64,000 nucleotides of DNA from the NCBI GenBank assembly GCA_944325945.1, contig CALVBW010000031.1, positions 62,001 through 126,000 on the forward strand. Reading direction: 5' to 3'. The notes below the pieces were generated by a model. It saw nothing but the letters and a program-made list of their open reading frames with translations, did no database searches and was not told the origin of the DNA. Origin of the DNA: Candidatus Gastranaerophilales bacterium (lineage in GTDB: Bacteria > Cyanobacteriota > Vampirovibrionia > Gastranaerophilales > Gastranaerophilaceae). A program made the translations under genes and the position numbers. Position 1 is the stretch's first letter; each line of letters opens with the position of its first letter. Below, piece by piece: positions 7,064 to 56,231 of the stretch.

Positions 7064-7612
7064 AGTAAATCCTTAGTGCCCTATTGCCTTAGTATCTTAG
7101 TAACTTTTTCTTGAGATCCTGAAACAAGTTCAGGATGACAAATGTAGGTCGGATTTTCCGACAGTAAATCCTTAGTGCCCTAGTATCTTAGTAACTTTTT
7201 CTTGAGATCCTGAAATAAATTCAGGATGACAAATGTAGGTCGGATTATCCGACAGAAACTCTTAGTGCCTTAGTATCTTAGTATCTTTTTCTCGAGATCC
7301 TGAAACTAGTTCAGGATGACAAATTGTAGGTCGGATTATCCGACAGAAACTCTTAGTGCCTTAGTATCTTAGTATCTTAGTATCTTTTTCTTGAGATCCT
7401 GAAATAAATTCAGGATGACAAATGTAGGTCGGATTTTCCAACTGTAAATCCTTAGTGCCTTAGTATCTTAGTAACTTAGTATCTTTTTCTTGAGATCCTG
7501 AAACACCTAACGGCTTCGCCGACGGATGCAGGCTCACACAACTCGTTCCTCGTTGGTTCGCTTTGCAAAATTCAGGATGACAGAAAGCGCAGGCTGGGCT
7601 TTCAGCCCAAAA
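7064..7612. repeat. Composite intergenic repeat field, five units of about 90-100 bp
   Basis: Each unit contains a block of degenerate octamers (CTTAGTGC, CTTAGTAT, CTTAGTAA; reverse complement NNACTAAG), then CTTTTTCTTGAGATCCTGAA, a short loop, TTCAGGATGACA, and GTAGGTCGGATTNTCCNAC. The GATCCTGAA/TTCAGGATGAC arms can form a hairpin. The fifth unit has about 65 bp inserted in the hairpin loop (7504-7570), itself rich in small inverted repeats. No gene is seen between 7030 and 7635. The same unit recurs near 18.2, 33.0 and 61.4 kb. Confidence 0.85.
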
Positions 7613-13592: not shown

Positions 13593-14492
13593 ATGAAAGC
13601 TTTATTAGTTGATAACATAAATAATATTGCGGTTGAAATTCTCAACAGCAAAGGGATTGAGACATGTGTTATGCCTCCGCAAAAGGATTTGAGCGGGATT
13701 ATCGGAGATTTTGATGCGATTTTACTCCGGAATTTGACCTGCATTACGGAAAATGTAATTAAAAACGCCGAAAAACTTAAAATAATAGGCAGAGTAGGCT
13801 CAGGGCTGGATAATATTGACGTAAAATCCGCAGAAAAAGCCGGAATAAAAGTTATCAATTCACCGGACGGAAATACAATTGCAACGTCAGAGCACACAAT
13901 GGCGATGATGCTTGTGCTTTCAAGAAAAATTCCCATGGCATGTGCATCTGTTTTTTCAGGGAAATGGGAGCGCGAAAAATTTGTCGGCAACGATTTATTC
14001 GGAAAAACAATAGGCATCATCGGCTGCGGCAGAATAGGCTCAAGGGTAGCGCGGCTTTGCGAAGCGTTCGGGATGAAAGTTCTTGTCTATGCGAGACGAA
14101 AAATCGACGGATTTGAATGCTTTGACAAACTTGAAGATATTTTGCCGCTTTGTGACTGGATTTCACTCCACCTGCCTAAAACGCCGGAAACAACAGGTAT
14201 TATTAATTCAAAAACCATAAAACTTATGAAACACGGGGTTAAAATTGTAAATTGCGCAAGAGCCGCCCTCGTTGTAGAAAATGATGTAATAAAAGGGCTT
14301 GAAAGCGGAATTATATCCGGAATAGCAACGGATGTTTTTGAAAATGAGCCGGATATAGCGGACTCTCCGCTTTTAAAATTTCCGGACAAAGTGGTTGCAG
14401 TACCACATCTCGGCGCCTCTACAATTGAGACACAGACAAAGGTTGCCGCCGAAATTGCAGCACAAGTTGCACAATATTTAACCGGAAATTAA
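13593..14492 (+). CDS. serA: D-3-phosphoglycerate dehydrogenase-like 2-hydroxyacid dehydrogenase
   Basis: 299 residues: catalytic and NAD-binding domains only, with no C-terminal ACT domain. The NAD motif GIIGCGRIGSRVA is near residues 135-147. The catalytic Arg lies in RVGSGLDNID, the Glu in DVFENEPD and the His in PHLGAST; HLGAST favours phosphoglycerate dehydrogenase over other family members. It would start serine synthesis from 3-phosphoglycerate. Lack of the ACT domain suggests no classic serine feedback. ATG directly follows the upstream TAG. Confidence 0.85.
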   Translation: MKALLVDNINNIAVEILNSKGIETCVMPPQKDLSGIIGDFDAILLRNLTCITENVIKNAEKLKIIGRVGSGLDNIDVKSAEKAGIKVINSPDGNTIATSEHTMAMMLVLSRKIPMACASVFSGKWEREKFVGNDLFGKTIGIIGCGRIGSRVARLCEAFGMKVLVYARRKIDGFECFDKLEDILPLCDWISLHLPKTPETTGIINSKTIKLMKHGVKIVNCARAALVVENDVIKGLESGIISGIATDVFENEPDIADSPLLKFPDKVVAVPHLGASTIETQTKVAAEIAAQVAQYLTGN

Positions 14493-15757
14493 TTTAATTC
14501 TTCAATGTATTTTACAAGCTCACCGAGAGAATAGGTATTTTTTATCACGAAAAAGTTTTTACCGGCAGCTTTTTTGACATAATCGAGATTTTTGCCGTCC
14601 AAAAAATCTTCGCTGTACGGTCTTAGCATTATAGACGGAATCACCACAAAATCCGCAGGAACATCTTTAACCGTTTTTATCAAATCATCTGTCGTAATCA
14701 AACCCGCAACGGTAATGTCTTCACCCCAGTAATCGGATTTTACGGGGTGAACTGAGCAGGTAAGGTTTTGAATTTTATTAAGCCGTGCCGCAATTTTTTC
14801 CATAGCATGCTTTGCCGCATAAGACGTTGCAAATATGAAATTCAACGGTTGTTTAAGCTTTGCCGGCAGCTTATATGTTTTAAAATCCTCCAGCAAAAGC
14901 CTTATGGCGCCGACACCGTCATCAAGCTGGGCAAAATTTCCGTAATACTTTGCCGGCGGAATTTCACGTTCCGCAAGCAGAAAAAATTCATCCGAGCAGC
15001 AGACCCTTTTGTAGCGTGATGCAATAGCTATTGTTTCTTCCGCACATTTTTTATCAACCTGTTTTAAGCCGTCTTTTCTGAAGCGTGTAATCCCGACCGG
15101 CACAATCGCTGTTGACAGGACTGTATTTTTTAATTTTGCAAGATCATTAAGCGTCCGCTCAAGCTCCGCACCGTCGTTAATTCCCGGGCAAAGGACAATT
15201 TGAGCGTGAAAAGGAATTTTATTTTTTCTGAACCATTCAAGATTTTCAAGTGCCTTGCCGGCGTTCGGGTTTTGAAGCATTTTGCATCTCAATTCGGGGT
15301 TTGTAGTGTGAACCGAGACATAAAAAGGTCCCAGATGCATTTTTTTAATTCTTTCGCGGTCTTTGCCGGTAAAATTTGTCAGCGTAATATAGGTGCCCTG
15401 AAGATAGGAGAGCCTGTAATCGTCATCTTTTACGTAAAGGGTATCCCTTAACCCCTTTGGCTGCTGGTCAACAAAACAAAATATGCATTTATTGAGACAC
15501 GGTTTTACGCGGTCGAAAACAGCACTTTCAAATACAATTCCCAAATCTTCGTCAAAATCTTTTTCAATGTCTATTTCTTCAATTTCGCCGGATTTTTTCT
15601 TAACCTCAAGCGTTAAAAATTCCGTTTTGCAGAAAAAGTTATAATCAATCATATCGAGCAATTTGCACCCGTCGATTGAAAGAATTTCGTCGCCGGCTGA
15701 GATTTCCAGCTCGTCTGCAATTGAATTTTTAATAACACTATTTACTGCTGCCGGCAT
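14489..15757 (-). CDS. DUF512/PDZ radical SAM-like protein
   Basis: 422 residues. It starts with a PDZ-like segment (about 1-60, AGDEILSIDGCKLLD). A CLNKCIFC cluster follows at Cys87, Cys91 and Cys94, the CxxxCxxC spacing of radical SAM enzymes. The next segments, VDQQPKGLR and YVKDDDYRLSYLQGTYITL, are hallmarks of the DUF512 (TIGR03279) family, common in cyanobacteria and clostridia. Its function is unknown. It overlaps the PadR-type gene by 20 bp and converges with the SerA-like gene (4-bp tail overlap). Confidence 0.9.
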   Translation of the reverse strand: MPAAVNSVIKNSIADELEISAGDEILSIDGCKLLDMIDYNFFCKTEFLTLEVKKKSGEIEEIDIEKDFDEDLGIVFESAVFDRVKPCLNKCIFCFVDQQPKGLRDTLYVKDDDYRLSYLQGTYITLTNFTGKDRERIKKMHLGPFYVSVHTTNPELRCKMLQNPNAGKALENLEWFRKNKIPFHAQIVLCPGINDGAELERTLNDLAKLKNTVLSTAIVPVGITRFRKDGLKQVDKKCAEETIAIASRYKRVCCSDEFFLLAEREIPPAKYYGNFAQLDDGVGAIRLLLEDFKTYKLPAKLKQPLNFIFATSYAAKHAMEKIAARLNKIQNLTCSVHPVKSDYWGEDITVAGLITTDDLIKTVKDVPADFVVIPSIMLRPYSEDFLDGKNLDYVKKAAGKNFFVIKNTYSLGELVKYIEELN

Positions 15758-16265
15758 TTTCTTTTTCCAAACCTTCCAGAATAGTTATAAAATTAGCATA
15801 TTCGCAAATCGCATTATCAAGAACAATTCTCTGATAAAAACTCAGATGATTGTATTCATCGTTAATAATTGCCTCAGCATTGTATTTGTGCTGCATTGCA
15901 AGCGATTTGATATGGAAAAACAGGTCAGCGCACTCCTCCTTTGACAAAAAAGACGCGCAAGAAAGCTTTATTCTTGCATTTGTCAGAAACTGCACGGGAT
16001 TTTCGCTTAAATTTTCCAGAATAAGCCTGCGCAGTTCCTCGAGCCCGCTTTTGTTAATAATATAAAAAACAGATAGTTTGCCGCCGTCGGACATAATTTT
16101 GCGGGAAGTCAGGCATCCCTGCTTTTCCAGTCTGACGAGTGCAGGTTTTATCGCACCGATACTCGGTTTTGAAAACGCGCCAAAGTTTTCAAAAATAAAC
16201 TTTTGCACAGCATACATTGTTAATTCGCGTTTTGACAGCACGTATAATATCATTAACTCAATCAT
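15738..16265 (-). CDS. PadR-family transcriptional regulator
   Basis: 175 residues. The N-terminal winged helix-turn-helix (about 1-85) has the PadR pattern: MIELMILYVLSKRELTMYAV, then KPSIGAIKPALVRLEKQGCL and a wing. The C-terminal part is helical, as in the Vir_act_alpha dimerisation region. PadR proteins usually repress a neighbouring gene; the downstream DUF512 gene overlaps it. A TATAAT preceded by TG lies only 4 nt before the ATG, so the leader is absent or very short. Confidence 0.85.
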   Translation of the reverse strand: MIELMILYVLSKRELTMYAVQKFIFENFGAFSKPSIGAIKPALVRLEKQGCLTSRKIMSDGGKLSVFYIINKSGLEELRRLILENLSENPVQFLTNARIKLSCASFLSKEECADLFFHIKSLAMQHKYNAEAIINDEYNHLSFYQRIVLDNAICEYANFITILEGLEKENAGSSK

Positions 16266-16321
16266 ACATATATTATATCATAAAATTTTTAAGAAATTTC
16301 CGAAAAATACTGCGATTTTCA

Positions 16322-16347
16322 CAAAAAAAACCTCCCTGAAAGGGAGG
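16322..16347 (-). terminator. Rho-independent terminator of the 16372-17218 unit
   Basis: The hairpin CCTCCCT-GAA-AGGGAGG at 16331-16347 is followed on the minus strand by a run of eight T. It lies 24 bp beyond the stop of the 16372 gene. Confidence 0.85.
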
Positions 16348-16371
16348 AATTACATATTAAGATTAAATCTA

Positions 16372-16740
16372 TTAACTCAAAGCCATCAAAGCTTTAACAG
16401 AACGTGCATTTTCTCTGACTTCTTCGTCTGAATGCATATCAATGGTATCTGACAAAACTTTTATAGCTTCATCTTTATTATCAAGAGCCAAAAGTTCATT
16501 AATCGTGCTCATGGCAACAACAGTTGACATGTCATTAATACCTTTGCCTTTATTCGTAATAGTAACCGCAAGAGAGTCATGGTTGTTTTTTCTAACCAGC
16601 GCGCGGGCTGTTAATTCTCTGATTTCATCGTCCGGAGAATTTGTACCCATTTGCTCCAGAACTCTTATTGAATCAGCATCTGAATGCAAGCATAAAGCTT
16701 CTATAATATTTTTGATTTTTCTGTTTTTGTTATCTTTCAT
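16372..16740 (-). CDS. Small HEAT/ARM-like helical repeat protein (122 aa)
   Basis: Start ATG at 16740 follows GGAGGAATAG; an in-frame extension to 16764 would overlap the upstream stop. The product is an all-helical, soluble protein with three or four roughly 30-residue helix pairs. The repeated pattern (SIRVLEQMGTNSPDDEIRELTARAL, EVRENARSVKALMALS at the end; positions about 33-57 and 105-122) resembles HEAT-like repeats. No catalytic motif is visible. It probably mediates protein contacts and is co-transcribed with the 154-aa protein upstream (14-bp gap). Confidence 0.65.
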   Translation of the reverse strand: MKDNKNRKIKNIIEALCLHSDADSIRVLEQMGTNSPDDEIRELTARALVRKNNHDSLAVTITNKGKGINDMSTVVAMSTINELLALDNKDEAIKVLSDTIDMHSDEEVRENARSVKALMALS

Positions 16741-16753
16741 CTCTATTCCTCCT

Positions 16754-17218
16754 CTATGCCGCATAATTTAATCCTGCCAAATCTTTCCACATAGCTTCCA
16801 GCGTAGCAACGTCCTTATTTCTGAGTTTTTGGACGCTGTAATTGTCTGCCATTGATGCAAAGCCTGATTTAATAGCACGGCCTGCACCGGCGAAATCAAT
16901 TGATATTTCCATTGAGCCAATTTCATTTAATTTATTAATAGCGGATGAAAGACCTTCTTTCATTCTGCTGCCGAATGCAACGACTGATTCGATACCTTTA
17001 CGGAAAGTCGGGAACGCATCGCCGATTGAACCGACAAAAGCGCTCAATTTTAATTTGTCTTTTAATGAAGCTTTAGGAGCTTTTGTTTCAAATACGTCAG
17101 CAGTCAATACATTACCTTTGAATGTAGATGCTGCAAAAGGGTTTGAAGAATGATTTACTGTCTTTCCGATGGTTATCGGGGTGTTTAAAACCTGACCAAT
17201 CTTTGCAATTATTGCCAT
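16754..17218 (-). CDS. Unknown 154-aa protein with N-terminal FKG motif
   Basis: Not recognised. Near residues 26-37 it has NPFAASTFKGNV, matching the F(T/K)G motif near the N-termini of the 8358-9860 and 31438-31965 products. The rest is alanine- and glycine-rich with amphipathic helices and no clear membrane segment. The ATG is preceded by GAGAGGTATAC. First gene of a pair with 16372-16740, ended by the terminator at 16322-16347. Confidence 0.65.
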   Translation of the reverse strand: MAIIAKIGQVLNTPITIGKTVNHSSNPFAASTFKGNVLTADVFETKAPKASLKDKLKLSAFVGSIGDAFPTFRKGIESVVAFGSRMKEGLSSAINKLNEIGSMEISIDFAGAGRAIKSGFASMADNYSVQKLRNKDVATLEAMWKDLAGLNYAA

Positions 17219-17333
17219 TAATGTATACCTCTCTGTTTACTATTCACATACTAAGAATAACATACTAACTTGATATGAAATCCACCTTTTGATGTAATTT
17301 TCAAAAAATAATATAAACTTTAGTTGGAGTTTG

Positions 17334-17342
17334 TGATAAGAT
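17334..17342 (+). promoter_or_regulatory. Extended -10 promoter of mazG, leaderless spacing
   Basis: TGA followed by TAAGAT at 17337-17342, then exactly 6 nt before the ATG at 17349. A GGAG at about 17325 lies too far upstream to be a ribosome binding site for this ATG and would not be transcribed from this promoter. Confidence 0.5.
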
Positions 17343-17348
17343 TTGAAT

Positions 17349-18110
17349 ATGGGATATGAAAATTTAGAAGGATTAATAGATGTAATCCGTCGTCTGAGGG
17401 CGCCGGACGGGTGCAGGTGGGACAGAGAACAAACTCATAAAACCCTCCGCCCGAATATGCTTGAAGAAGCTTATGAAGCGGTTGACGCCATTGACGACAA
17501 CGATATGAAACATTTAAAAGAGGAGCTGGGCGATGTTTTGCTGCAGGTAGTTCTGCATTCTCAAATCGCCTCTGAAGAAGGCGAGTTCACAATAGAAGAC
17601 GTTGCAAAGGGGATTAAGGATAAATTAATCCACCGCCATCCGCACGTTTTCGGGAACACAAAAGTGAATTCAACAGCTGAAATCCTCGACAACTGGGACA
17701 AATTAAAGGCAGAGGAAAAACCTCACCGCAAATCCGCAATGGACGGGATTTCAAAATCGCAATCCGCCTTGATGAGTGCACAAAAAATCAGCAAACGCGC
17801 GGTTAAGCAGGGGTTTGAGTGGCCTGATGAAAAATCGCTTTATGAATGCATATTCTCAGAATTTGACGAATTCAAAGAAGCCTGCAAAGAGCAGGACAAA
17901 GACCATATGGAGGATGAATTCGGGGATATTTTATTTGCTGTTGTAAACCTTGCTCGCTGGAATAAAATTGATGCGGAGCAGGCGCTTTTACGGGCGAACA
18001 AAAAATTCGAAAAACGTTTCCGAAAAATGGAGGAACTGGCTGAAAAACCGCTCACGGAATACACTTTTGAAGAATTTGACGCACTCTGGAAACAGGCAAA
18101 AAAATCCTAA
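17349..18110 (+). CDS. mazG: MazG nucleoside triphosphate pyrophosphohydrolase
   Basis: 253 residues from ATG 17349 (a TTG two codons upstream is possible). Two MazG domains: the first has EEAYE and EELGD metal-binding motifs at about residues 38-63, the second EFDEFKEA and EDEFGD at about 174-195. Full-length MazG hydrolyses NTPs and dNTPs to monophosphates and is linked to removal of abnormal nucleotides and to stringent-response tuning. It is monocistronic, followed by repeat elements. Confidence 0.93.
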   Translation: MGYENLEGLIDVIRRLRAPDGCRWDREQTHKTLRPNMLEEAYEAVDAIDDNDMKHLKEELGDVLLQVVLHSQIASEEGEFTIEDVAKGIKDKLIHRHPHVFGNTKVNSTAEILDNWDKLKAEEKPHRKSAMDGISKSQSALMSAQKISKRAVKQGFEWPDEKSLYECIFSEFDEFKEACKEQDKDHMEDEFGDILFAVVNLARWNKIDAEQALLRANKKFEKRFRKMEELAEKPLTEYTFEEFDALWKQAKKS

Positions 18111-18221
18111 AATAAGGGAATAAGGTAATAAGGGAATAAGTGTTATATAAAAAGCAATCCTGGAAAAATTCCGATCAGATTAATTTTAGAAATAACTTAT
18201 TCCCTTATTCACTTTTAAAAA
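18111..18221. mobile_element. AATAAG-flanked MITE-like element, copy 1
   Basis: Left arm of tandem octamers (AAATAAGG, GAATAAGG, TAATAAGG, GAATAAGT), a core of about 60 bp beginning GTGTTATATAAAAAGCAATC, and a right arm of inverted octamers (CTTATTCC, CTTATTCA). The core recurs at 36379, 39761 and 47888. It is too short to encode a transposase. Confidence 0.75.
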
Positions 18222-18223
18222 CG

Positions 18224-18477
18224 TAGTAAATCCTTAGTGCCTTAGTATCTTAGTATCCTAGTAACTTTTTCTTGAGATCCTGAAATAAATTCAGGATGAC
18301 AAATTGTAGGTCGGATTATCCAACTGTAAATCCTTAGTGCCCTAGTATCTTAGTATCCTAGTAACTTTTTCTTGAGATCCTGAAATAAATTCAGGATGAC
18401 AAATTGTAGGTCGGATTATCCAACTGTAAATCCTTAGTGCCCTAGTATCTTAGTATCTTAGTAACTTTTTCTTGAGG
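18224..18477. repeat. Composite CTTAGTNN/hairpin repeat, three units, third truncated
   Basis: Two complete units of about 97 bp and a third that stops within CTTGAG at 18477, just before the phage-like island. The units match those at 7064-7612: octamers, AGATCCTGAAATAAATTCAG hairpin and GTAGGTCGGATTATCCAAC. No gene lies between 18111 and 18509. Confidence 0.85.
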
Positions 18478-18509
18478 TAGAACCCCTGCATTCCCCCCAC
18501 GCATCAAAC

Positions 18510-19118
18510 CTACAGACCGCGGGACAGGTTTTTAATAACCCTGCCGACAATTGAAATTTCAACATCGCTATCCGGTTTCAGGGTTTCCATCGGATATTTT
18601 GCGTTATCCGAAATTATGTCCAATTCGCCTGTAACTCTTAACCTCAAACGTTTTACATACCATTCATTATTTATTGTCAAAACAAATATCCCGCCGTTGT
18701 TAAAATCCTTACGAGAAATGTCAACAAGCAAAATATTTCCGTCCTCTATAATATTTTCCATGCTGTCGCCGGATGCCTTGAATAATTTTAAATCCTGAGG
18801 GTGCGGGATTTTCCAGATATCACGTATAATCTCTTTGCCTATCTTTACAGGCGTAACATCCGCATCATCCAGCACTACCGTTCCCTTCCCGCAGGAAGGG
18901 TTTATCTGAATATATTCCAGTTCCACGCAATCAGATGCCAGATCTATGCCGTAATGCGCCTCAATAAGCGCAATCTCATCTTCCGTAAATTCGCTGTCAC
19001 GCACTGCTCTGGCAGACATAGCAGCTTTTTTTATCTCTAATATTTCACACAAATCCGTCTGCTTTGGTTTGTATCCTATTAAACTTTGTAACATATTTAA
19101 TAGTCTGCTGTATTTCAT
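18510..19118 (-). CDS. CI/LexA-type repressor with S24 peptidase domain
   Basis: 202 residues. The C-terminal S24 domain has the catalytic Ser119 in SGDSMEN and Lys156 in WYVKRLRL. A Cys76-Gly77 bond upstream is a plausible self-cleavage site (Ala-Gly or Cys-Gly in this family). The N-terminal 65 residues should bind DNA but form only a weak helix-turn-helix match. Its likely role is to keep the divergent phage-like genes off and to release them after RecA-stimulated cleavage. The start follows GAAGGTG. Confidence 0.85.
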   Translation of the reverse strand: MKYSRLLNMLQSLIGYKPKQTDLCEILEIKKAAMSARAVRDSEFTEDEIALIEAHYGIDLASDCVELEYIQINPSCGKGTVVLDDADVTPVKIGKEIIRDIWKIPHPQDLKLFKASGDSMENIIEDGNILLVDISRKDFNNGGIFVLTINNEWYVKRLRLRVTGELDIISDNAKYPMETLKPDSDVEISIVGRVIKNLSRGL

Positions 19119-19142
19119 TTTTCACCTTCGATTAAATATTTT

Positions 19143-19193
19143 GTTGACTTAATCAACTTTACTGTTGACTTTTGTACACAAATGTGTTAATAT
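19143..19193 (+). promoter_or_regulatory. Divergent control region: strong rightward promoter and operator-like palindromes
   Basis: The rightward promoter is TTGACT (19165-19170), 17 bp, TAATAT (19188-19193). A palindrome GTTGA-N5-TCAAC lies at 19143-19157, a GTTGA half-site overlaps the -35 box, and ACACA-AA-TGTGT lies in the spacer. These are candidate repressor sites. An inverted repeat CTCCG...CGGAG around 19212-19237 could form a leader hairpin. Confidence 0.65.
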
Positions 19194-19348
19194 GATTATG
19201 TAGATAAATAACTCCGCCGGATGGTCAATATCCGGAGAATTGCAGGCTGAGCCTAAATTCCAACATCATTATAATACAACAAATACAATAGGCTATCACC
19301 TGACTGGATATATTTATTGTAAAAAAAATTTACAATTGGGGAGGCAAC

Positions 19349-19540
19349 ATGTTAAAAAAATTAGAAAAAAAAGAAAACAAAAAAGAAACTTTACGCAAAA
19401 AACTGATAGATTATTACAATCAAATAAACAAAGATAAAACCGCGATACCGGCATTTATGCTTGCGGATGCAGATATGCGGATTATCGAAAAAAACGGAAC
19501 ACTTGATTACTGGTATAACAACTTTGTAAATGGCGACTGA
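19349..19540 (+). CDS. Small phage-island protein (63 aa)
   Basis: Not recognised. The ATG at 19349 follows a strong GGGGAGGCAAC ribosome binding site. The first third is extremely lysine- and glutamate-rich and should be helical; the rest is acidic, with DYWYNNF near the end. The first ORF after the rightward promoter, it overlaps the next ORF by 11 bp. Position suggests an early regulator, but no motif supports that. Confidence 0.6.
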   Translation: MLKKLEKKENKKETLRKKLIDYYNQINKDKTAIPAFMLADADMRIIEKNGTLDYWYNNFVNGD

Positions 19541-19712
19541 AGATAATTTTTTACGATTAAATGAGGAATATTCACTGAGTGAGCTGGAAAAACGTACGTA
19601 CGACGGTGAGTTTTCACTTGACGAAATAAAATCAATTTTTCTTAACGGTAATATCAGCTTAGCCGAATATTTATACTGTTTTGAAATTTTGGAAAGGAAC
19701 ATTAATGCCTAA
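19530..19712 (+). CDS. Small acidic phage-island protein (60 aa)
   Basis: Not recognised. Acidic, helical, with a two-fold pattern (SLSELEKRTYDGEFSLDEI) around residues 15-33. It begins inside the 63-aa ORF and its stop overlaps the start of the replication-like gene (19705), so translation is coupled. It could be an antirepressor-like or accessory protein, but nothing proves it. Confidence 0.5.
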   Translation: MATEDNFLRLNEEYSLSELEKRTYDGEFSLDEIKSIFLNGNISLAEYLYCFEILERNINA

Positions 19713-20829
19713 ACGACTTACTGATACTGAAATTTGGAACAAAGACTGGTATTTGGACCTGTCAATTAAAAAAAAGCTGCTTTTAAAATACCTGTTTGAC
19801 AATTGTGACTGCGCAGGCGTTTACGAAATTTCTTACAGGAATTTGCGCAACTGCTTTAATGAAGAAATCACAAAAGAGGATTTCGACGGACTGCTATTGA
19901 TAAAATTTATAGATGAAAACAAAATACTTATTCAAGACTTTATAAAACTTCAGTACGGAGTGACGCCGGATATGCTCAATCCCGAGAATAGTGTGCATAA
20001 AGGCATACTTCGATGTCTTGAAAATCATAAACTCTTACCTAACCCTTTGCTAACCCTTAAAAATAAGAATAAAGATAAAGATAAAAATAAAGATCAAAAT
20101 AAGAATCAAGATAAGAATAAAAATCAAGATAAAAATATGAATTTTGATATTAAAAATCATAACGATAATATTGTTTTTGATATGAATACAGATAACAACA
20201 ATTTACAAATTGATACAAATGATATGAATTCTAATCATGAAAATATTAATTCAGATATTAAAAACGATAATTCTAAGCTTAATAGTGATAAAAGTGATAT
20301 GAATTTTAATCATGATGATATGAATTATAGTATTGAAATTGATAACACGGAGTCAAAAATCAACAATTTTGATATTAAAAATAATCACAAAAAAGAACTA
20401 AAGAGCAAGTTTAACGACTTAAAGGCAGAAATGTTCAAGGAGTACACGGCAAGGTGCACACATCTGATACAACTTACGGGAGAGAGCAAAAGCAAACGTA
20501 CGGACGAAAAAATCCGGCTTTTTCTGAATGAAACCGGCTGTAATATGGAGTTTTACAGACAGCTGTGCGACAAAGCCGACAGGTTAAAGTCAGTTGGCTG
20601 TGTAAACATAGATTTTGAGACAATGCTCAATTGCAGAATCGGGATTATGAACGGAAAATACAAACCGCCCAAAAAGAGTGAAGAAGAAAAAATTCGTGAA
20701 CGTGCAAAAAGGGAACTGCTTGAAACAAAAAAAATGCTTGCGTACTACCGGAATTTCAAAGGCGACCCGCCGACCGAAAATTTCAAAAAATTCGGTGAAA
20801 AATTAAGGAATATGGGGAAAACAAAATGA
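19705..20829 (+). CDS. Phage replisome-organiser-like replication protein with Asn-rich linker
   Basis: 374 residues from ATG 19705, after GGAAAGGAAC; the in-frame start at 19681 precedes that site. Residues 1-115 resemble the N-terminal domain of phage replication initiators (TDTEIWNKDWY, then KLLLKYLFDNCDCAGVYEIS). Residues about 120-235 are a low-complexity linker of Asn, Asp and Lys with repeated DMN and DIKN words, encoded by near-tandem AAT/GAT/AAA codons. The C-terminal 130 residues are charged and helical, similar to DnaD-like C-terminal parts. It would recruit host helicase or primase to an element origin. Confidence 0.65.
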   Translation: MPKRLTDTEIWNKDWYLDLSIKKKLLLKYLFDNCDCAGVYEISYRNLRNCFNEEITKEDFDGLLLIKFIDENKILIQDFIKLQYGVTPDMLNPENSVHKGILRCLENHKLLPNPLLTLKNKNKDKDKNKDQNKNQDKNKNQDKNMNFDIKNHNDNIVFDMNTDNNNLQIDTNDMNSNHENINSDIKNDNSKLNSDKSDMNFNHDDMNYSIEIDNTESKINNFDIKNNHKKELKSKFNDLKAEMFKEYTARCTHLIQLTGESKSKRTDEKIRLFLNETGCNMEFYRQLCDKADRLKSVGCVNIDFETMLNCRIGIMNGKYKPPKKSEEEKIRERAKRELLETKKMLAYYRNFKGDPPTENFKKFGEKLRNMGKTK

Positions 20830-21275
20830 CGATAACGCTTGAGAGGCTTAATGATTACACGGAGATAGTAAAGGAAATGGATTTTTTGTTAAAGAAAAAA
20901 GAACAACTCAAAGCAAGACTTGAAGCACTGAAGAGTCCGGATTACACAAAACCTAAAGTAACCGGTTCAGAGAGCAAAACGAGTGAACAGGAGCATTATG
21001 TAATTTCGCTCGAGCGGATTAACAAAAAAATAGACGAGTACAAAAGCTGGCTCCTCCCGGAACATGAAAGGATAAAACACGAAATTGCGAATATAAAAAA
21101 ATGGCAGTACCGTAAATTACTTGTATACAGATATCTTGAAAAATGGAAGTGGTCAGAAATTATCAAGGAATTTTTTGAATTTGAAGACGATTTTGAAGAT
21201 GAGAAAGATTGCAAATACAAAGAAAAAGTAATGTACTGGCACCGCAGAGCGCTCAAGGAACTTACCGGAATTTAA
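20826..21275 (+). CDS. DUF1492/ArpU-like phage transcription regulator
   Basis: 149 residues. It opens with LERLNDYTEIVKEMDFLLKK, the pattern of DUF1492-type phage proteins, with a coiled coil through residue 100. The C-terminal part (KLLVYRYLEKWKWSEIIKEF, ending in WHRRALKEL) resembles sigma region 4-like helix-turn-helix regulators such as ArpU or RinA, which control late phage genes. No late genes follow: the island ends here and ilvB comes next on the other strand. The start overlaps the upstream stop by 4 bp. Confidence 0.6.
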   Translation: MTITLERLNDYTEIVKEMDFLLKKKEQLKARLEALKSPDYTKPKVTGSESKTSEQEHYVISLERINKKIDEYKSWLLPEHERIKHEIANIKKWQYRKLLVYRYLEKWKWSEIIKEFFEFEDDFEDEKDCKYKEKVMYWHRRALKELTGI

Positions 21276-21320
21276 ATCCGATAAGCGACAGTCCGGTTAT
21301 TACACCCTGCTGTCAGGCTG

Positions 21321-32961: not shown

Positions 32962-33132
32962 GCAGGTCGGATTATCCAACAGTAAATCCTTAGTGCCTTA
33001 GTGCCTTAGTATCTTAGTATCCTTTTTCTTGAGATCCTGAAATAAATTCAGGATGACAAATTGTAGGTCGGATTATCCGACAGAAACTCTTAGTGCCTTA
33101 GTATCTTAGTATCTTAGTATCCTAGTATCTTT
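32962..33132. repeat. Composite CTTAGTNN/hairpin repeat, two units
   Basis: Starts with GCAGGTCGGATTATCCAAC, then octamers (CTTAGTGC, CTTAGTGC, CTTAGTAT, CTTAGTAT), the GATCCTGAA/TTCAGGATGAC hairpin, GTAGGTCGGATTATCCGAC and a second octamer block of five. Same family as 7064-7612. Confidence 0.85.
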
Positions 33133-55898: not shown

Positions 55899-56102
55899 CT
55901 AATTGTTGCTTAATACTAATCTGAAGGTTGCTAAATTTTTGATTGATAACATAGCATGTTTATTATGCTGTTCTTCTGCTATATTAAAAATACGAATAAT
56001 ACGCTGAATTTCTTCCATATCTTTTCTTGATTCGATTTTATATACATTATTAATCGGATCTGATACTACTGACATCATTGTATTTAATTCTTGTTCTTTC
56101 AT
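55899..56102 (-). CDS. Small unknown helical protein (67 aa)
   Basis: Start at ATG 56102, after AGAGGATAACTC; an in-frame extension to 56189 has no ribosome binding site. The product is helical and soluble, with DMEEIQRIIRIFNIAEEQ in the middle and a KNLATFRLVLSNN end. Not recognised. It has its own terminator (55832-55871). Possibly a lineage-specific regulator, but nothing proves it. Confidence 0.6.
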   Translation of the reverse strand: MKEQELNTMMSVVSDPINNVYKIESRKDMEEIQRIIRIFNIAEEQHNKHAMLSIKNLATFRLVLSNN

Positions 56103-56231
56103 TTGAGTTATCCTCTTTCCAACCTGTATATTTATATAAAGATTTTTGTGCCGTGAAAATTGCTTTTTTACTTTTATGAGTTGTAACATTTGTTTACAAA
56201 CAACCGGATTAAATATTAGACAGCATTATCA

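Follow-up and report, generated by a model that had tools for sequence, protein, structure and literature searches.

A phage-like control and replication island and a separate virion gene cluster that occur together in a genus of Gastranaerophilales

A phage-like island beside mazG

We analysed a 64,000-nt stretch of a Candidatus Gastranaerophilales bacterium (the window; contig CALVBW010000031.1, positions 62,001 to 126,000, or G000:C31:62001-126000 in our labels, in which G, C and L numbers denote genomes, contigs and loci) from the 1.63-Mb genome G000. Between mazG on the left and ilvB on the right lies a phage-like island that runs from the stop codon of a repressor gene to that of an ArpU-like gene (18510-21275). 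It comprises the S24 repressor gene, a divergent promoter with operators, two small open reading frames (ORFs), a replication-initiator-like (rep-like) gene and the ArpU-like gene, with all frames intact and neighbouring frames of the divergent operon overlapping by 4-11 nt (Table 1). Pfam and PHROG profile searches found no integrase or virion genes among the island genes. ORF calls and Pfam and PHROG matches bear out the gene content, order and coordinates given by an earlier reading made from the letters of the DNA (the sequence-only reading); its claim that the DNA has no other phage component is right for this locus and wrong for the genome, which carries a virion cluster elsewhere.

Table 1. 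Features of the island, in window coordinates
Feature	Position	Strand	Basis or remark
S24-type (LexA/CI-like) repressor	18510..19118	-	Pfam PF00717 1.2e-18; phrog_4 repressor 9.3e-27
Operator-like inverted repeat O1	19143..19157		between repressor start and rightward promoter; by inspection
Operator-like inverted repeat O2	19164..19179		overlaps -35 box; perfect GTTGAC-TTTT-GTCAAC in G152, G168
Rightward early promoter, TTGACT-17-TAATAT, TG ahead of -10	19165..19193	+	position conserved in relatives
80-nt leader element in 5' untranslated region	19256..19335	+	one copy each in 11/16 genus genomes
ORF1, small early protein	19349..19540	+	
ORF2, small early protein	19530..19712	+	
rep-like (replication-initiator-like) gene	19705..20829	+	architecture, position, one phage homologue's match
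Candidate origin inside rep gene	20041..20394		19% G+C, short repeats
ArpU-like regulator	20826..21275	+	phrog_36 1.3e-9

The repressor fits the self-cleaving S24 class in its domain, its Ser-Lys dyad and its Cys-Gly site. Cys76-Gly77, the candidate cleavage site, and Ser119 and Lys156, the presumed catalytic residues, are invariant in all five copies from the mazG region, and self-cleavage is predicted from these residues, in agreement with the sequence-only reading. The consensus promoter with operators that it had described matches the consensus at 9 of 12 positions, and a promoter scan by itself did not rise above chance (18 sites against 12.4 +/- 4.0), but promoter and operators recur in four relatives. 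Elsewhere in the 64-kb window, no operators for the repressor were found above chance.

Between the early promoter and ORF1 sits the leader, which is nearly unchanged in five species and can still be recognised in a sixth island (G116) that otherwise differs greatly. It had no Rfam match at the gathering threshold and no convincing one at an E-value of 1, and a search for a common RNA fold found none. In four of five mazG-region islands (L057, L059, L056, L055) a terminator-like hairpin with a T-run, possibly an attenuation device, follows the leader; it is absent from the window copy. ORF1 is also the first gene behind the repressor promoter in related prophages and phage contigs.

We took position 19705 as the start of the rep-like gene; the listed 382-residue ORF begins further upstream, at a TTG. 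A structure model predicts a confident N-terminal domain, a disordered linker and a helical C-terminal domain. Among ten homologues from phages and prophages that we scanned, one matches a "replication initiation protein" (2.6e-6) and another a "DnaD-like helicase loader" (0.005), and in some phage contigs the homologue comes after genes whose N-termini read as those of single-stranded-DNA-binding-like or recombination-like proteins. The window protein itself had no match in Pfam, and a fold search of the Protein Data Bank (PDB) gave nothing significant. The DNA encoding the linker is very AT-rich with short repeats in all nine islands (lowest 150-nt window 13-26% G+C). The last gene had been described as DUF1492/ArpU-like: the ArpU part stands through its PHROG match, whereas DUF1492 falls below the Pfam cut-off (15.5 vs 21.5 bits), and a fold search against the PDB yielded nothing significant.

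A virion cluster beside recN and its late promoter

Searching with a sequence-only model of the leader, we found a single copy in each of 11 of the 16 genomes of the genus. All five island genes are intact in nine genomes (9/9 islands of the mazG type), at several chromosomal sites; the island of G195 is counted among the nine though its repressor runs off the contig end. In G116 and G194 the island is a variant made of repressor, leader and rep, without ORF1, ORF2 and the ArpU-like gene. These variants (L060 13673-16162, L121 2585-5259) have the same leader and a different repressor and rep, with other small genes replacing the three that are missing. Across the order the leader was found in 17 of 383 genomes, six of them outside the genus and weak (E ~1e-4), and two of these six, when opened, held no island gene. 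Weak matches apart, the leader is confined to the genus.

The large terminase gene, TerL, is present in one copy in each of the same 11 genomes and absent from the same five. For independent genomes such a match would arise by chance once in 4368; the genomes here are not entirely independent of one another. The tail sheath gene is found in 10 of the 11 TerL genomes and in none of the other five, and is missing only in G134, whose contig ends inside the cluster. By profile matches, this late cluster encodes a terminase, portal, scaffold, capsid, connectors, a contractile tail with sheath, a baseplate and an endolysin. It adjoins recN in 9/11 genomes (G000, G168, G152, G134, G193, G096, G197, G195 and G196), and its gene order is constant as far as the contigs reach, with the exception of G096, where two baseplate/fibre-like genes lie further downstream. 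The cluster of G152 is complete and spans ~20 kb from an hsp20-like gene to recN; 28 of its ORFs gave no match to the integration/excision families of PHROG, one further 64-aa ORF lying outside the scan. In the window's genome the head part (C31:1-7573) lies beside recN and the sheath at C21:1146-2279.

Where TerL and the island share a contig, host genes separate them, over 73 kb in G000, 78 kb in G168, 76 kb in G152, 23 kb in G193 and 4 kb in G196; in G196 recN and a sigma factor gene lie between the island and a phage head module. Finding the remaining prophage genes here in relatives was one result that the sequence-only reading had said would refute it. Most relatives have those genes in the genome but elsewhere, and in the G194 variant the terminase lies ~0.9 kb from the repressor.

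Upstream of the small terminase gene (TerS) we found an array of 10-bp units (A[AC]AC[CT]NNNNN, some units deviating) that ends in ACACTTGTTTAAA and is followed by a -10-like box. It precedes TerS in all nine genomes that have the ArpU-like gene, eight recognised by pattern and G193 by eye, since its seven units and diverged end motif were missed by the pattern. The end motif is exact in 7/9 of these genomes and has one mismatch in G196, and uninterrupted pattern-matching units number 2 to 6 per array. The pattern gave no match in 2.36 Mb of other loci, two units plus the end motif occur once in the whole G000 genome, and the three matches in IMG/VR lie on contigs without a relative of TerS, TerL or ArpU. 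Units spaced by 10 bp lie nearly on the same side of the helix, as one expects where an activator binds in an array, and the ArpU-like protein is the obvious candidate to bind them.

Two further features of the late cluster stand apart. A fibre-like gene of 33x aa is its most variable member (38-62% identity) and perhaps a repeated or shuffling cassette; the late-cluster contigs of five genomes stop at or near it (L138 1-216, L139 18611-19615, L141 204-1217, L142 1-225, L144 237-1280). A metallophosphoesterase gene lies on the opposite strand inside the cluster in 9/9 mapped genomes (L138 1558-2343 and its orthologues).

Selection, descent and flanks

Island and virion genes are under purifying selection. 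Mean pN/pS (the ratio of nonsynonymous to synonymous differences) over ten pairs of five genomes was 0.12 for the repressor, 0.29 for ORF1, 0.43 for ORF2, 0.30 for rep and 0.19 for ArpU; neighbouring genes in the same test, from which mis-framed comparisons of the gene at 14489 with G134 were excluded, gave 0.12 (mazG), 0.15 (p16754) and 0.07 (p16372). Synonymous divergence of the island is near-saturated and falls inside the range of neighbouring genes, a range that includes the island genes themselves. For the virion genes, medians over up to 36 pairs were 0.087 for the major capsid protein (MCP), 0.147 for the portal and 0.174 for TerL, within an overall span of 0.087-0.29, and recN gave 0.163. 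When G000 is compared with each of the other eight genomes, identity is 91-98% for MCP and 77-99% for recN.

We compared tree topologies in seven genomes, using a host set of seven genes (an eighth, found in only 5/7 genomes, was left out). The virion genes agree on one topology, and it is incompatible with the host concatenation. Concatenated island genes also reject the host tree (p 0.015), but the virion tree is not rejected (0.096). Taken singly, ArpU and the repressor have the virion tree as their best fit; the host tree is rejected by ArpU (0.002) but not by the repressor (0.077), and rep rejects neither host (0.156) nor virion tree (0.068). When nine genomes were used with two host genes, the island once more rejected the host tree and was borderline against the virion tree (approximately unbiased test p 0.048, Shimodaira-Hasegawa test p 0.205). 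Island and virion genes, although apart, thus tend towards a common history, one that includes exchange between species. Host genes are mosaic too, recN rejecting the host concatenation.

Within the family, 46 of 191 sampled genomes hold a TerL relative, and relatives of at least 60% identity belong to genera g1, g2, g6, g19, g20 and g34; among the TerL loci checked (1.5 kb on each side), adjacency to recN is seen only in g1. G098:C17 resembles a linked prophage, with TerL at 73% and repressor and rep together, an arrangement that plausibly pictures the ancestor. Genus g34 (L180, L181) has TerL, capsid and a 45%-identical repressor within a few kb, as an unsplit relative would, and in genus g2 (L182, L190) the genes of related phage clusters are in scrambled order, interrupted by families of proteins that resemble one another and may be secreted. 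The best-ranked matches to named phages reach 50% for the capsid and 31% for the terminase. A single repressor sequence found no close relative in IMG/VR; an alignment found six relatives, the best at 58%.

The mazG site itself varies. The island sits between mazG and a 67-aa host gene in G134, G168 and G152, and on the opposite side of the mazG block in G096, where island and 67-aa gene are swapped round the block; in G038, G068, G196 and G193 the 67-aa gene directly follows mazG and no island is there. The comparison for an empty site suggested by the sequence-only reading thus yields four mazG sites without the island, but two of these genomes, G193 and G196, carry it elsewhere. The island's ends coincide with stop codons, and no sequence is common to its flanks at either end. 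As had been seen earlier, the left border cuts a repeat unit, namely the third one (at 18476) of a 100-nt intergenic tandem repeat; the core motif of this repeat, GATCCTGAAATAAATTCAGGATGAC, is an ordinary intergenic repeat with 7 copies in the window (e.g. 7115-7422, 18276-18403, 33033-33060). The 67-aa gene, ~95% conserved across the genus and normally adjoining mazG or the island, has moved in the window to 55899-56189 by a rearrangement with a breakpoint at the island's right edge; upstream of it lies a conserved block (TTAACAAATGTTACA ... AAAAAAGCAATTTT ... CTTTATATAAATATACAGG). Relative to G168, window positions 14489-21275 are inverted, one breakpoint being exactly that right edge.

A proposed two-locus domesticated phage and its counterparts

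We read the island as the locus for early control and replication in a domesticated phage that has no integrase and is kept at two chromosomal places, and put the probability of this at roughly three in four. Support is drawn from co-occurrence, the intact gene sets, selection, the recN locus, the lack of an integrase, the array, the phylogeny and the AT-rich centre of rep. The sequence-only reading had offered a domesticated switch as one explanation and had argued that intact frames speak against simple decay; both points are upheld by purifying selection on the same five genes, intact in nine copies of the genus. The genes have features of a gene transfer agent (GTA): the phage-derived genes are endogenized at several loci, with host genes between them in five genomes and no integrase in 28 G152 ORFs, and the genes of a caudovirion-like particle (terminase, portal, capsid, connector, sheath, baseplate) are under selection. 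We call the system GTA-like and do not class it as a GTA.

As we picture it, the S24 repressor would silence the early promoter through the paired operators until DNA damage, when RecA would trigger its self-cleavage in an SOS-type induction, as the residues suggest. The early operon would then yield the initiator, which may open the AT-rich origin within its own gene in the manner of lambda O and the Bartonella run-off replication (ROR) region, and firing of this origin would amplify the nearby chromosome. The ArpU-like activator would bind the array observed before the small terminase gene and turn on the late operon in trans. The resulting particle would most likely carry pieces of host DNA, like a gene transfer agent; self-packaging as a phage is unlikely because there is no integrase and the loci lie 4-78 kb apart where they share a contig. 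The full scheme, a GTA induced by DNA damage that over-replicates part of the chromosome, has its remote capsid operon switched on by ArpU and packages amplified host DNA preferentially, is more tentative, and we would give it somewhat less than an even chance.

Several points weigh against a domesticated two-locus phage of this kind. We know the system from its genes, and we infer particles, induction and DNA transfer from them. The role of rep is assigned mainly from position and architecture, and its AT-richness and repeats could merely mirror a low-complexity linker. The C-terminal part of the ArpU-like structure model has low confidence. In G116 and G194, both without ArpU, we found no array, but contigs of only 5.5-5.7 kb make this absence weak, and the late cluster of the window's genome is split over two contigs, leaving its completeness there unproven. 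Descent is not strictly vertical, and the element has been exchanged between species of the genus, because the virion genes reject the host topology; yet 9/11 genomes share the same recN locus.

A domesticated phage could also have kept its particle for killing, as a tailocin does, instead of for DNA transfer. The contractile tail with sheath, baseplate and endolysin would suit this, as would a fibre-like gene that is the most variable part (38-62% identity), but a tailocin needs no terminase, portal or capsid, and all of these are kept, the capsid most strongly (pN/pS 0.087); we consider this alternative unlikely. We find it less probable again that this is still an active temperate phage, its two parts having come apart only through draft-genome rearrangement. 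Terminase and repressor are adjacent in variant G194, and island and virion genes share a phylogeny unlike that of the host; nevertheless, in G000, G168, G152, G193 and G196 host genes separate the two loci on a single contig, the 28 G152 ORFs scanned include no integrase, and the best IMG/VR capsid among the top 80 of 598 matches reaches 66% identity compared with 91-98% within the genus.

Equally improbable in our estimate is the satellite that the sequence-only reading had proposed, an autonomous and compact mobile element with its own replication that relies on a helper phage for packaging; satellites of the PICI/P4-like kind are recognised by an integrase and attachment sites. Compactness, a repressor and rep of its own, several different sites in the genus and four empty mazG sites would fit such an element. 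We rejected it, as we did chance or artefact as an explanation of the island: it has no integrase and no conserved ends outside coding frames, occurs in one copy per genome and always alongside the same virion cluster, and two of the genomes with empty sites, G193 and G196, hold it elsewhere. We give the lowest probability, by a little, to a prophage remnant, the neutral leftovers of an old lysogen being lost. Related repressor, rep, ArpU and ORF1 genes are found in prophages and phage contigs with recombination and terminase genes, and the terminator hairpin that accompanies the leader in four relatives has been lost from the window copy. Neutral loss is at odds, however, with nine intact five-gene sets whose pN/pS is well below 1 at near-saturated synonymous divergence, with the conserved promoter and operators, and with the strict co-occurrence with virion genes.

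Within the collection of papers searched, we found no report of a GTA in Gastranaerophilales or Melainabacteria. Lambdoid immunity and replication regions combine a CI/S24 repressor, a divergent early promoter and an initiator gene with an internal origin; unlike them, the island keeps five genes and has no cro, integrase, recombination genes or helicase loader. PBSX-like defective prophages are inducible and have an ArpU/Xpf-like positive regulator of late genes, but form one contiguous locus, unlike the two loci here. The regulators of the Rhodobacter capsulatus GTA (RcGTA) differ from those described here. The criteria for viriforms in PMC9662315 are a fully endogenized genome, often at several loci, genes able to form a caudovirion-like particle, mostly vertical inheritance that follows the host, and the packaging of mainly random host DNA for delivery to other cells; in having phage-derived genes endogenized at more than one locus the system is like RcGTA and related viriforms. 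If the two-locus reading is true, GTA-like domesticated phages extend to the Cyanobacteriota/Melainabacteria group, and what looks like a tiny "phage scrap" lacking an integrase can be one half of a system with two loci, revealed by matched presence and absence across a genus.

Closest in layout is the Bartonella GTA (BaGTA). PMC3610622 places the ROR region at a median of 32 kb and a maximum of 91 kb from BaGTA, describes ROR gene 4 with an O-like G+C dip, and states that for RcGTA neither a phage origin nor amplification has been identified. Both systems pair a virion cluster with a small replication island of phage origin that lies tens of kb away (4-78 kb here), both loci are under purifying selection, and the lambda-O-like gene with a G+C dip in Bartonella would have its counterpart in rep with its AT-rich centre. 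Unlike BaGTA, the system here belongs to a different phylum, carries a self-cleaving-type repressor and an ArpU-like activator on its island and a repeat array at its late promoter, and is present in 11/16 genomes rather than fixed in the genus; the likeness rests on layout, and DNA transfer is here something we infer. If true, it would be a second, unrelated case of the pairing of a remote phage origin with a capsid cluster known from Bartonella, and under the more tentative full scheme the ROR-GTA strategy would have arisen independently in a different phylum. Such a second case would make it testable whether pairing an origin with a capsid cluster is a general solution.

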